Assembly: GCA_026705925.1 (NCBI GenBank)
Contig: JAPOZT010000029.1
Coordinates: 81,169 to 145,168 of the forward strand
From: Gemmatimonadota bacterium
Lineage (GTDB): Bacteria > JAAXHH01
Direction of reading: 5' to 3'
DNA length: 64,000 nucleotides
Translations under genes and position numbers: made by a program
Notes under the pieces: generated by a model
Told to the model about the DNA's origin: nothing
Databases searched by the model: none
What the model saw: the letters and a program-made list of their open reading frames with translations, nothing else
Shown here: piece after piece, positions 31,785 to 37,581 of the stretch
How the letters are laid out: every line of letters begins with the position of its first letter
Position numbering within the stretch: the stretch's first letter is position 1

Positions 31785-34547
31785 CTACCCGCCCTTGCCG
31801 AACCGCCCTTCGACACGCTCCCTCGTGCGCGTGAAGATCTCGATGCCGGCCGTAACGCCCCCACCGAAGAGCAGTCCCTCCAGGGCGCCCAGGGCGACCT
31901 GGGTGGTGCGGCCGAATTCGCCTTCCCCGAAGATCGTCGCGATGGTTTCGAGCCGGATCTGGGACGCATCGAAGGACTGCCGCAGGGTTTCCAGGCTGGC
32001 CGTGAACATGTTGCCGCCCATCACGGTCAATACGATGCTGGCAATCATGCCGCCCAGTGCGCCGAAGACGATGTAGAGCAGGCTTCGCCACTGGCCGGGC
32101 CGCCTGGCCAGATAGTACGTGACGACCGGTCCGAGGGCCACGCCCGCGCCGATGAAGGCGCCTTCGAGACCGCCGGTCAGGTCCGCGGGTTGCCGGCCGA
32201 ACAGGGTCTGAATGGTATCGGAACTGTACAGGCTGAACGCGGCGCCCACCATGCCGCCGCCCAGCGCGCCGCCCAGTACGCCGAGCCACCGGCCGTATTT
32301 CCCGGATACGCGCCGCAGCGCGACCATGCCGAAGGACACGCCCGCACCGCCGAATGCTCCGCCGAACAGACCCAGGCCGGCCAGGACGAAAATGGGCGTG
32401 AGCGCCTCCGACGACAGGCCGGAACTGACGGCGGCCAGGGCGGTTCCGAGAAGAAGCCCGCCGAACAGGCCGGACACGGCGCCGCCGAACGATCCTCCGA
32501 TGCCCTGCTGCATGATGTCGATCCCGCCCTGTTGCAGGCGCATCAGTATGAACCCGACCATCACCATGACCCGGTACAGCCGGGAAAGCTTGACCGAGCG
32601 GTTCTGTTCCCGCAGGAAGGCCAGGCTGACCGCCCGCTGGAGACGGCTTACGGACTCGTTACCCGTGGGCCGGGTCAGGACCGATTCCACCGCCGAGCCG
32701 AACCAGTCCGCCAGCTCGATACTTGCCGCCCGGCGCACACTCAACATGGGATCCCGCAACGCAAGGTGCCGGAGCCGGTTGTTCAGTGCCGCGCAGCGCA
32801 CGGGCCGGGATGACTCCACCGCCCGCTTGCGTACTTCCCGGCGATCGTTGTACATGGCCTCCAGTATCACGTTCACCGCATCCGGCACCTTTTCAACCAG
32901 CCAGGGCGGCACGGGCCGGTCCCGGTTGAGCATGCTGATGCAAAGCAGGTATGCTTCCTGGCCGGAGACGCCGATTTCTTCCAGGTAGGGCGCAAGCAGG
33001 TCCAGGCTTTCATGGTCCATGATGAGCTGGTAGGTCCTGTAATTCTCCACCGACCGTTCGAGCAGGCTCCGTGCCTGCTTCGCTTCGTAAACGCTGCCGG
33101 TCAGCCAGCGGGACACCTCCGGAATCATGCATTCGTGGGCGAGTTCCAGCCACCCTTCCCCTTCCTGGTTTCGTCGCCGGACGATACGGGCGTCGACCAG
33201 TTCCCCGAGCAGCGTTCCCAGGGTGTCGGCGTCGTACCGGTCGCCGGCCTGGATACGCGCTGCCAGATCGGCCTCCCGCACGACGATGAGCCGCTCCTCC
33301 GCGGAGATGAGCGCCAGCAACACCTGCTGCACCACGGACAGGTCGGCTGCCGAAAACCGGCGGAGGACCCTTGCGAGATAGTCGGCCAGGATTCGCGAAG
33401 CGCCGCCCAGCTGGTCGTAGGCCGATTCCGTGATCATGTTTTTCGTATCGCGTTGATCGTACAGCGTATCGCACACGATCTGCAGGTGCGGCGGATCGAC
33501 GGTGTCCTCGTCGGAGAGGTCCTCCAGCAGGCGGTCGACGAGCGCGTCTTCGTACCGGCAGCCGACCCGCCAGGCGGGACCCGTGATGGCCTGTGCGGCC
33601 TGTTCGGAGGTCAATCGGCTGAGACGGTATTCATGGTGGAAGATCTCCGGGACCGCCGGCTTGAGCCGGCTCATCTCCGCGAGCATGTCCTCCCGCATCA
33701 CGAAGACGAACTGCAGGGGCAGCGCATCGTCCTCCATGATCACGGCGAGTTCATCGACGAACGCCTCCCGGCCCGGTTCATCAAGCAGGAGAAAGAACTC
33801 TTCGAACTGGTCCAGCATGACGACAATCCTGGACGCGGGGCCGGACCAGTTCCGGTGCAGCAGTTCCTGCAGAGAAACACCGTCCGGGTCGAACCCGCCC
33901 ACTCCGCTCTCCGTTACAAGCCGCCGGACCATCCGCTGCATGTGCTGCAGGGGATCGGTGAAACTCCGGATGATACACGTCAGGTGGCCCTGGTCCTGCA
34001 ACCGCGGGATGACGCCGGCCCGGAGGATCGAACTCTTGCCGACGCCGGAACGGCCGTAGAGGAGAAACGAGCGCCGGGCAAGGATGCGGGAACAGATGTT
34101 CTCGATCTCTTCCTCGCGGCCGAAGAACAGGCCCTGGTCGTTCTCGGTGTAGTAATCGAGGAACTTGTACGGACGGGTCGGCTTGTCTTTGGCGGCCTGC
34201 GGGGACGGTTCGTCCTCGATCTCCACCGCGTCGCCGATGAAGACGTATCCATGCTTCGGCACCGTTTTGACGTAACGGGGATTCGACGCGTCATCCTCCA
34301 GCTGCTTCCGGATCGACTTGATACACTGGGTCAGCGCCGTATCGCTGACGATCACGTCCTCCCAGACTTCGTCGAAGATGCGGTTTTTCTCCACGAGCTG
34401 TCCCGCATTGGATACCAGCAGCACCAGTACGTCGAAATACCGGGAACTCAGCGGAAGCACGGCGTGTTTCCGGCGGATCTGGCGGTTCTGGATGTCCAGC
34501 ACGAAGTCGTCGAAGCGGAAGCCTTTGGCGGCAGTCTGTTGTGTCAT
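31785..34547 (-). CDS. OmpR/CadC-type winged-helix + nSTAND ATPase + Gly-rich multi-TM C-terminus fusion
   Basis: N-term wHTH FRFDDFVLDIQNRQIRRKHAVLPLSSRYFDVLVLLVSNAGQLVEKNRIFDEVWEDVIVSDTALTQCIKSIRKQLEDDASNPRYVKTVPKHGYVF; FFGREEEIENICSRILARRSFLLYGRSGVGKSSILRAGVIPRL; RIVVMLDQFEEFFLLLD; C-term hydrophobic Gly-rich segments. Confidence 0.88.
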   Translation of the reverse strand: MTQQTAAKGFRFDDFVLDIQNRQIRRKHAVLPLSSRYFDVLVLLVSNAGQLVEKNRIFDEVWEDVIVSDTALTQCIKSIRKQLEDDASNPRYVKTVPKHGYVFIGDAVEIEDEPSPQAAKDKPTRPYKFLDYYTENDQGLFFGREEEIENICSRILARRSFLLYGRSGVGKSSILRAGVIPRLQDQGHLTCIIRSFTDPLQHMQRMVRRLVTESGVGGFDPDGVSLQELLHRNWSGPASRIVVMLDQFEEFFLLLDEPGREAFVDELAVIMEDDALPLQFVFVMREDMLAEMSRLKPAVPEIFHHEYRLSRLTSEQAAQAITGPAWRVGCRYEDALVDRLLEDLSDEDTVDPPHLQIVCDTLYDQRDTKNMITESAYDQLGGASRILADYLARVLRRFSAADLSVVQQVLLALISAEERLIVVREADLAARIQAGDRYDADTLGTLLGELVDARIVRRRNQEGEGWLELAHECMIPEVSRWLTGSVYEAKQARSLLERSVENYRTYQLIMDHESLDLLAPYLEEIGVSGQEAYLLCISMLNRDRPVPPWLVEKVPDAVNVILEAMYNDRREVRKRAVESSRPVRCAALNNRLRHLALRDPMLSVRRAASIELADWFGSAVESVLTRPTGNESVSRLQRAVSLAFLREQNRSVKLSRLYRVMVMVGFILMRLQQGGIDIMQQGIGGSFGGAVSGLFGGLLLGTALAAVSSGLSSEALTPIFVLAGLGLFGGAFGGAGVSFGMVALRRVSGKYGRWLGVLGGALGGGMVGAAFSLYSSDTIQTLFGRQPADLTGGLEGAFIGAGVALGPVVTYYLARRPGQWRSLLYIVFGALGGMIASIVLTVMGGNMFTASLETLRQSFDASQIRLETIATIFGEGEFGRTTQVALGALEGLLFGGGVTAGIEIFTRTRERVEGRFGKGG

Positions 34548-34629
34548 TCGGGGCTCAATGGGCGGTTTCCGAAGAAAAAAAAGGGTGATTCATACGTTCC
34601 TCACAGAATACTCACGGGGACCTCATGCA

Positions 34630-34648
34630 ATTCATATTTGATATGAAT
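34630..34648. promoter_or_regulatory. Perfect dyad ATTCATAT-TTG-ATATGAAT between divergent nSTAND regulator and ribB
   Basis: 8-bp perfect arms, 3-nt spacer; overlaps TATAAT at 34648-34653. Confidence 0.5.
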
Positions 34649-34793
34649 ATAATCCCCCTATGAGCATAAGTCTAATTTTCCACCGAGACACGGCGGCCAG
34701 AGCGTTCTTACTGAAAATCCATTCACTTGCGAATCCGATTGTGAGCGCGCGCCGCTCGTGTTTAATTACACCTTAGAAAAGGGGGTAAGCGAG

Positions 34794-35641: not shown

Positions 35642-36580
35642 ATGTCCCAGTTACCCGACTATCTGCCGGAAGCCGTACTCCGGTTCAATGATCTCGCGCT
35701 CGACGCCCTGCCCGGCGCCGGGGACGCCTCCCTGGAGTCCGCCCACCGGTACTGCAGCCGTCTCGCGCGCCGGCACTACGAGAATTTTATCGTCGTTTCC
35801 CCCTTTCTACCCTCCGCGCTCCGGCGGCACTTCTACCATGTCTACGCCTACTGCCGGTGGTCCGACGACCTCGCCGACGAAACCGGAGACACGGGCCTGT
35901 CCCTTGAGCTGCTCGACTGGTGGGACGCCGAATTGCTGGCTTGTTACGACAACGAATTCCGTCATCCGGTATTCATCGCCCTCCGGGAAACGATCGACCG
36001 GTTCGACATTCCGATTACCCCGTTCCGGGACCTTTTGACCGCGTTCCGGCAGGACCAGGTCGTGACGCGTTACCGGACCTACGCGGACGTACTCGAGTAC
36101 TGTCGCTACTCCGCCAATCCCGTAGGGCGTCTCGTGCTCTACCTGTGCGGCTACCGGGACAGGGAGCGGCAGCTGTTGTCCGACGCCACGTGCACCGCGC
36201 TCCAACTGGCCAATTTCTGGCAGGATGTGCGGGTAGACCTGGCAAAAGACCGGATCTACCTGCCCCTGGAGGATCTGGACCGGTACCATTACACCGAAGA
36301 GGACCTCGAGGCCGGGGTCGTCGACGATCGATTCAGGGGACTGATGGCATACCAGGTGAACCGGACGCGCAAGCTGTTCGATGAGGGGCTCGGACTGCGC
36401 GGGATGGTGGACGCAAAGGTCGGGCTGGACATCGAACTGTTCAACCGGTGCGGTTCCGCCCTGCTGGACCAGATCGAAAGGCAGCGATTCGACGTGCTGA
36501 CCCGGCGACCCACCCTGTCAGCCGCACGGAAGACCGGACTGTTCATGAAATACGCACTGAAACGACTATGGATTCGCTAG
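35642..36580 (+). CDS. hpnC: Squalene synthase HpnC
   Basis: YCRWSDDLADETGD Asp-rich motif; NPVGRLVLYLCGYRD; ANFWQDVRVDLAKDRIYLP. Confidence 0.9.
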   Translation: MSQLPDYLPEAVLRFNDLALDALPGAGDASLESAHRYCSRLARRHYENFIVVSPFLPSALRRHFYHVYAYCRWSDDLADETGDTGLSLELLDWWDAELLACYDNEFRHPVFIALRETIDRFDIPITPFRDLLTAFRQDQVVTRYRTYADVLEYCRYSANPVGRLVLYLCGYRDRERQLLSDATCTALQLANFWQDVRVDLAKDRIYLPLEDLDRYHYTEEDLEAGVVDDRFRGLMAYQVNRTRKLFDEGLGLRGMVDAKVGLDIELFNRCGSALLDQIERQRFDVLTRRPTLSAARKTGLFMKYALKRLWIR

Positions 36581-37581
36581 CACGTTCCTATGATTTCTGT
36601 CGCGCGGTCGCGAAATCGAGGGCGAAGAACTTCTACTATTCCTTCCTCGTACTGCCGGCCGAAAGAAGGCGGGCTATGTGCGCGGTCTACGCCTTCATGC
36701 GCTATTGTGACGATATCGTCGACGAGGAGACCGGGGAGACCGGGACGACCGGTGCAAACGGGACGACCGGTGCAAACGGTTCGATCGAGACGGCCGGCGA
36801 AACAGGGACGGCCGGCGAAACCAGCGAAGCCGGGACAGCGGACCGTCTATCCCGTTTGAAAGTCTGTCGCGAGATCCTGGACGGCGCCTATGAAGGAACG
36901 CAGGGCGGATACAGCACCCATGACGGAGACATCGACTTTGACGGAACGCCGGGAGAAACGTCGCCCGGCGATGACATGTTGCCGGCGTTCAGCGATACGG
37001 TGCGGCGGTTCGACATCCCCAGGGCGTACTTCGACGCCATCATCGACGGCGCGGAAATGGACCTTACCGTGACACGTTACGCCACCTTCGCGGACCTGTA
37101 CCAGTACTGCTATCGAGTGGCTTCCGCCGTCGGACTGGTGTGCATACGTATCTTCGGATACCAGGGCGAAGAAGCCGAGCGTTACGCCGAGTCCTGCGGC
37201 ATCGCCTTCCAGCTGACCAATATACTCCGCGACATCCGGGAAGACGCCGGGATGGACCGCGTCTACCTGCCGCAGGAAGACCTTGACGCCTACGGGTACA
37301 CGGAAGAGAACCTGCGGAACGGCCTGTTCAACGACCCGTTCCGGCGGCTGATGGGTTTCCAGGTGGAAAGGGCCAGGAGCTTCTATGACGAGGCGCTGCC
37401 TCTCCTACCGCTCGTTCAACCCTCGAGCCGGGCGTGCCTGGCGACGATGATCGGCATTTACCGGGCCTGTCTCGAGGAAATCCCCCGCCGCCAATATGAC
37501 GTCTATAGCCAGCGCATCGGCCTGTCCCCGTGGAAGAAGCTTTCCATTACGGCGCGGGCGCTGATCCGGAAACGCGTATGA
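36568..37581 (+). CDS. hpnD: Presqualene diphosphate synthase HpnD
   Basis: FYYSFLVLPAERRRAMCAVYAFMRYCDDIVDE; FQLTNILRDIREDAGMDRVYLPQEDL; contains a low-complexity insertion. Confidence 0.9.
   Translation: MDSLARSYDFCRAVAKSRAKNFYYSFLVLPAERRRAMCAVYAFMRYCDDIVDEETGETGTTGANGTTGANGSIETAGETGTAGETSEAGTADRLSRLKVCREILDGAYEGTQGGYSTHDGDIDFDGTPGETSPGDDMLPAFSDTVRRFDIPRAYFDAIIDGAEMDLTVTRYATFADLYQYCYRVASAVGLVCIRIFGYQGEEAERYAESCGIAFQLTNILRDIREDAGMDRVYLPQEDLDAYGYTEENLRNGLFNDPFRRLMGFQVERARSFYDEALPLLPLVQPSSRACLATMIGIYRACLEEIPRRQYDVYSQRIGLSPWKKLSITARALIRKRV
36733..36835 (+). repeat. In-frame 18-bp (and related) tandem repeat in hpnD
   Basis: acgaccggtgcaaacggg acgaccggtgcaaacggt ... acggccggcgaaac repeats; encodes TTGANGTTGANGSIETAGETGTAGETSEAGTA. 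Confidence 0.85.

Follow-up and report, generated by a model that had tools for sequence, protein, structure and literature searches.

The window, the whole 64,000-nucleotide stretch of DNA analyzed here, carries on its minus strand an intact open reading frame with an ATG start (31785..34547) encoding a 920-aa protein. Its N-terminal winged helix, of the OmpR/ToxR type, occupies aa 8-108 (34224..34526, minus strand) and is recognized by Pfam as Trans_reg_C at aa 31-103 (E 8.6e-18, 64.6 bits against a cut-off of 26.2); the structural model of this part matches the DNA-binding domains of ToxR, RstA and CadC at TMt 0.83-0.89 (Foldseek). An nSTAND1 NTPase (PF20703) follows at aa 126-489 (33081..34172, minus strand; E 3.4e-59, 201.8 bits against a cut-off of 27.1), in which the Walker A motif GRSGVGKSS (165-173), LDQFEEFF (245-252) and RED (285-287) are invariant across all aligned orthologs. 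The next segment, aa 490-655 (32583..33080, minus strand), is modelled as helical by AlphaFold, and HEAT_2 is matched by 5 of the 11 aligned orthologs (best E 1.7e-6). The remaining aa 656-920 (31788..32582, minus strand) form a Gly-rich domain of six predicted membrane helices with both termini inside, proposed from hydrophobicity, charge pattern, internal repeats and homology to a shorter protein described below. The initial annotation had the coordinates of the gene right, with no strand given, and its OmpR/CadC-type DNA-binding domain, its STAND NTPase with GRSGVGKSS and LDQFEEFF and its Gly-rich hydrophobic C-terminus are all confirmed by these results. The HEAT-like segment that it had also named is found in orthologs but lies below the Pfam threshold in the window's own protein (E 0.12).

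One copy of the gene, full-length or truncated by a contig end, is present in 16 of 16 genomes of the phylum, which span five genera and three families; no second nSTAND1 was found in the genome. Full-length orthologs are 55-98% identical and come from metagenome-assembled genomes labelled Latescibacterota, Gemmatimonadetes and Zixibacteria. Within the genus, four comparisons involving the window gave dN/dS values of 0.04-0.10 (winged helix), 0.17-0.19 (nSTAND1), 0.05-0.14 (HEAT segment) and 0.12-0.18 (membrane domain). Purifying selection keeps all four domains. Because it acts on every domain and the orthologs share this level of identity, the architecture is far beyond chance. The STAND gene is apparently inherited vertically.

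The neighbors of the gene in the window are housekeeping genes, with thiL downstream and a divergent ribB-hpnC-hpnD-hpnE cluster upstream. hpnC lies within ~1.5 kb of the STAND gene in each of the family's three genera. In L007 (genus g2) the place of ribB beside hpnC is taken by a divergent gene for an alcohol dehydrogenase, identified by reading its translation. In G015 the translations read identify a same-strand nucleotidyltransferase upstream and an OppA-like binding protein downstream, and its 7.7-kb contig showed no hpn gene. A link to squalene or hopanoids is retained only as a speculative signal, since ribB or the alcohol dehydrogenase intervenes and hpn is missing from the G015 contig. 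As a separate observation, the HpnD-like squalene/phytoene synthase of the window (36448-37581, plus strand) contains an inserted Gly-X-Y-like run, GETGETGTTGANGTTGANGS...GETGTAGET, with a weak Collagen match (E 0.005).

Direct repeats upstream of the gene

A putative operator, the array CATGAG-N5-CGTGAG-N5-TGTGAG-N5-TATGAA with a period of 11 bp, precedes the gene (34589..34627, minus strand). The -10-like box TATATT (34646..34651, minus strand) stands 18 bp ahead of it and may be paired across an 18-bp spacer with a -35-like box, TTAGAC (34670..34675, minus strand), which was read directly and is conserved in the genus alignment. YRTGAR direct repeats, in 3-4 head-to-tail units at the same 11-bp period, are found in all five genera; L007, L008, L009 and L046 have three units each, some with a final T. 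In four genera the array is 17-20 bp downstream of the -10-like box, and the start codon lies 52 to 166 bp from the array. In G015, from the fifth genus, the repeats are present and a clear -10-like box was not seen. A near-constant spacing to the -10-like box combined with a variable distance to the start codon indicates that the array is positioned relative to the promoter; it would lie just past the transcription start. The initial annotation had pointed to an adjacent dyad, TTCATATTTGATATGAA. It does exist (34631..34647, with no strand assigned) and overlaps the -10-like box, but in a comparison of upstream regions its conservation ends at the genus border. The dyad was consequently rejected as an operator, the direct-repeat array being the conserved element.

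Targets were scanned across genomes by sequence pattern only. The three-unit pattern gave 45 matches in the 16 genomes compared to 6 for the reversed control. The array is located upstream of the STAND gene in 15 of the 16 genomes, 14 of them by the exact pattern and G011 with one mismatch; in the sixteenth, G002, the contig stops 57 bp before the gene. It accompanies the STAND gene in G015 despite the changed neighbors there. In genus g1 it recurs beside a TonB-dependent receptor gene at a Pit-permease-like locus (8/12 genomes) and ahead of a circularly permuted (CP) ATP-grasp operon (6/12 genomes, five read directly), which makes these loci possible second and third targets of an array-binding regulator. 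At the former, the array lies by the TonB receptor gene, near the Pit-like gene and opposite a small unannotated ORF (L080:6709-6747; also L081, L084, L085, L086, L051, L052, L054 and L056). At the latter, the operon with its array is divergent from a gene for an ArsP-permease/Band-7 fusion (L082:6670-6708; also L087, L088, L061 and L078). In one genome, a sequence almost identical to the STAND-gene array (CATGAGGTCCCCGTGAGTATTCTATGAG...) lies at an unrelated site, between genes for a DoxX-like membrane protein and a GFO/IDH/MocA oxidoreductase (L083:5314-5352, G011:C98). The analysis provides a candidate recognition motif and an initial set of possible targets for this uncultured phylum.

A tblastn search against plasmids identified a related protein of 382 aa, annotated as 'transcriptional regulator, CadC' (Swit_5304 and relatives), on five sphingomonad conjugative plasmids. 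Alignment with the window protein gives 47% identity over 119 aa for the winged helix and 41% over 202 aa for the C-terminus; the STAND and HEAT parts have no counterpart in the 382-aa protein. The 86-bp gap upstream of this short form carries CATGAG-N5-TATGAG (shuffle P 5e-4), the sole such pair on either strand in the surrounding 9 kb. The short form is encoded in a conserved plasmid block with crcB, dnaJ-like and beta-ketothiolase genes (L095:3992-5140, L096:3992-5140).

These distributions bear on which protein would bind the array. The array could serve as operator for another regulator of the OmpR/CadC type, one that controls the STAND gene together with others, without binding by the 920-aa protein. 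Further winged-helix proteins are indeed encoded in the genome, and the occurrence of the array at the TonB-receptor/Pit locus and the CP-ATP-grasp operon would be in keeping with such a regulator. We consider this unlikely. It fits poorly with the genomes that carry the array only at the STAND gene, as do G013, G014 and G015, in which there was no exact match elsewhere, and a matching pair precedes the sphingomonad short form, whose winged helix is related to that of the window protein.

The Gly-rich C-terminal domain

The C-terminal domain is 21% Gly and contains five charge-free stretches of 19-36 residues (678-713, 715-744, 754-776, 796-814 and 822-852). Six helices were placed by eye, without an independent prediction program, at approximately 684-710, 716-743, 754-776, 792-814, 822-844 and 883-903. 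Averaged over 11 orthologs, the number of K+R residues is 6.1 in the N flank, followed by 0 (out), 3.2 (in), 0.8 (out) and 2.3 (in), with 2.8 over the 38 residues of the final out loop and 3.6 in the C tail. By the positive-inside rule this pattern fits six passes with both ends cytoplasmic, and it serves as a consistency check rather than an independent prediction because the helices were placed by eye. The two-helix units resemble each other beyond composition (z 4.8 for units 1 and 2, z 5.1 for units 2 and 3), with no such likeness between units 1 and 3; this suggests that the domain is a degenerate repeat of two-helix units. AlphaFold, run twice on a shallow alignment, also produced C-terminal helices, mostly at low confidence (pLDDT <50), and for this reason the membrane assignment rests on sequence.

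In searches for this domain, no Pfam family was matched above threshold, and the domain was not found in 175 genomes of other lineages or in viral contigs. Nor was it found in two additional phyla (149 and 400 genomes), which is weak evidence as these searches had no positive control. Among the matches listed, phage records that match the 920-aa protein do so through its winged-helix or STAND part only.

The domain could instead belong to a soluble, MalT- or AfsR-like STAND regulator, its Gly-rich tail being cytoplasmic or self-associating and not crossing the membrane. Its hydrophobicity is moderate, its Gly content is very high and it has no confident structure model; Hessa-scale sums are unfavorable for insertion of several Gly-rich segments and favorable only at aa 824-842. 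A soluble protein is nevertheless quite unlikely, given the length of the charge-free stretches, the alternation of charges between inside and outside, and the same tail pattern in the distant sphingomonad homolog. The initial annotation had allowed that the C-terminus might be soluble, and the computed features point away from this. Of the functions that it had offered, the membrane-tethered transcription factor is the option best supported by the STAND-less short form, the upstream repeats and the positive-inside pattern. Its other option, a pore-type antiphage or cell-death effector whose ligand-driven oligomers would make the Gly-rich helices permeabilize the membrane, with a winged helix that merely autoregulates, draws on the use of STAND proteins in defense, the Gly-zipper-like tail and the SIR2-STAND protein Avs5 among the Foldseek matches (rank 28), but is very unlikely because a single, vertically inherited and well-conserved copy in every genome is unlike patchy defense genes, the neighbors are housekeeping and not a mobile or defense-island context, PADLOC gave no family match (its sole hit, a P-loop match to JetC at E 0.046, being spurious) and the same membrane domain occurs on a winged-helix protein with no STAND to trigger it.

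A putative membrane-bound switch

The existence of the STAND-less short form indicates that the winged helix and the membrane domain form a unit without STAND. In the phylum, a STAND-HEAT module lies between these two parts. Together with the array footprint, the short form makes the membrane domain most likely the anchor or sensor of a transmembrane transcription regulator whose DNA-binding head is connected to it through a STAND-HEAT switch. The conserved repeats before the protein's own gene suggest a self-controlling membrane-bound switch rather than a phage-defense pore. The 920-aa protein is, in our judgment, probably a one-component transcription regulator that is embedded in the membrane and carries a nucleotide switch; it would bind the array and probably repress its own gene.

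We infer the following sequence of events. The six-helix Gly-rich domain would insert into the inner membrane and anchor the protein there in the topology given above, and this domain or its conserved loop (845-882) would probably sense a membrane or periplasmic condition. The nSTAND1-HEAT part would act as an oligomerization switch under ADP/ATP control. Upon receiving the signal, STAND would cluster several winged helices, each binding head-to-tail YRTGAR repeats, on the array of 3-4 units just past its own promoter. Occupancy of the array would most simply repress the gene, as negative autoregulation, a direction guessed from position. In the window's genus, the regulon may extend to a few other array-bearing promoters.

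A more specific version of this proposal would make the protein a lineage-wide membrane transcription factor in which STAND links the DNA-binding head to a polytopic sensor of membrane lipid state (e.g. of squalene or hopanoid content, in view of the nearby hpnC), with ATP-driven assembly matched to the 3-4-unit array. This is improbable as it stands; if true, nucleotide-switched membrane regulators of this kind would form a class of their own. STAND switches and membrane-bound transcription factors are each widespread, but little is understood about how tethered factors assemble on DNA.

Comparison with known regulators

Both STAND transcription factors and transmembrane regulators with several passes are already known kinds. 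AfsR/SARP and BTAD-nSTAND1-WD40 proteins belong to the former, as does MalT, which is soluble, binds DNA through a LuxR-type domain at its C-terminus and has a superhelical sensor. ToxR and CadC cross the membrane once and have a periplasmic domain, and winged helices of the OmpR type bind direct repeats in a head-to-tail arrangement. The initial annotation had considered that the architecture might already be common and characterized as that of a simple SARP-like regulator. Its parts are of familiar kinds; within the limited range of sequences covered, however, no phylum other than this one yielded all four joined in this order. The SARP-like reading is disfavored: in Pfam scans of the 920-aa protein down to E 1-5 no BTAD domain was matched, so that it differs from SARP/AfsR proteins in having no BTAD after the winged helix and in having a Gly-rich hydrophobic tail.

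Transmembrane transcription regulators number 50,302 in a published catalogue, 27% of them, by our reading, with more than two membrane regions (PMC10269533). Like the ToxR/CadC-type members, the window protein joins an N-terminal OmpR-type winged helix and a predicted membrane region in one polypeptide; it differs from them in having nSTAND1-HEAT between the winged helix and a six-helix Gly-rich membrane domain. ToxR and TcpP boxes have a head-to-tail geometry with a 10-11-bp period (PMC4829181), and the putative operator array of the window has the same geometry. STAND NTPases such as MalT are closed in the ADP state and open in the ATP state, and multimerize on switching from the first to the second (PMC4381067). 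The window protein resembles MalT in the fusion of a DNA-binding domain to a STAND NTPase expected to oligomerize with ATP, and differs in that its C-terminal part is a predicted membrane domain.

The proteins at L011-L013, in which nSTAND1 is followed by a membrane segment and then by TPR/WD40-like repeats, share with the window protein an nSTAND1 core that is 28-33% identical and a hydrophobic segment after the NTPase. However, an OmpR-type winged helix is not apparent in them, repeats follow the membrane segment and the Gly-rich six-helix domain is absent. The Swit_5304-type short form has the winged helix, the membrane domain and the upstream CATGAG-N5-TATGAG pair in common with the window protein, but is plasmid-borne and has neither nSTAND1 nor HEAT. 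Long and short forms placed on the same array would offer a direct test of what STAND adds.
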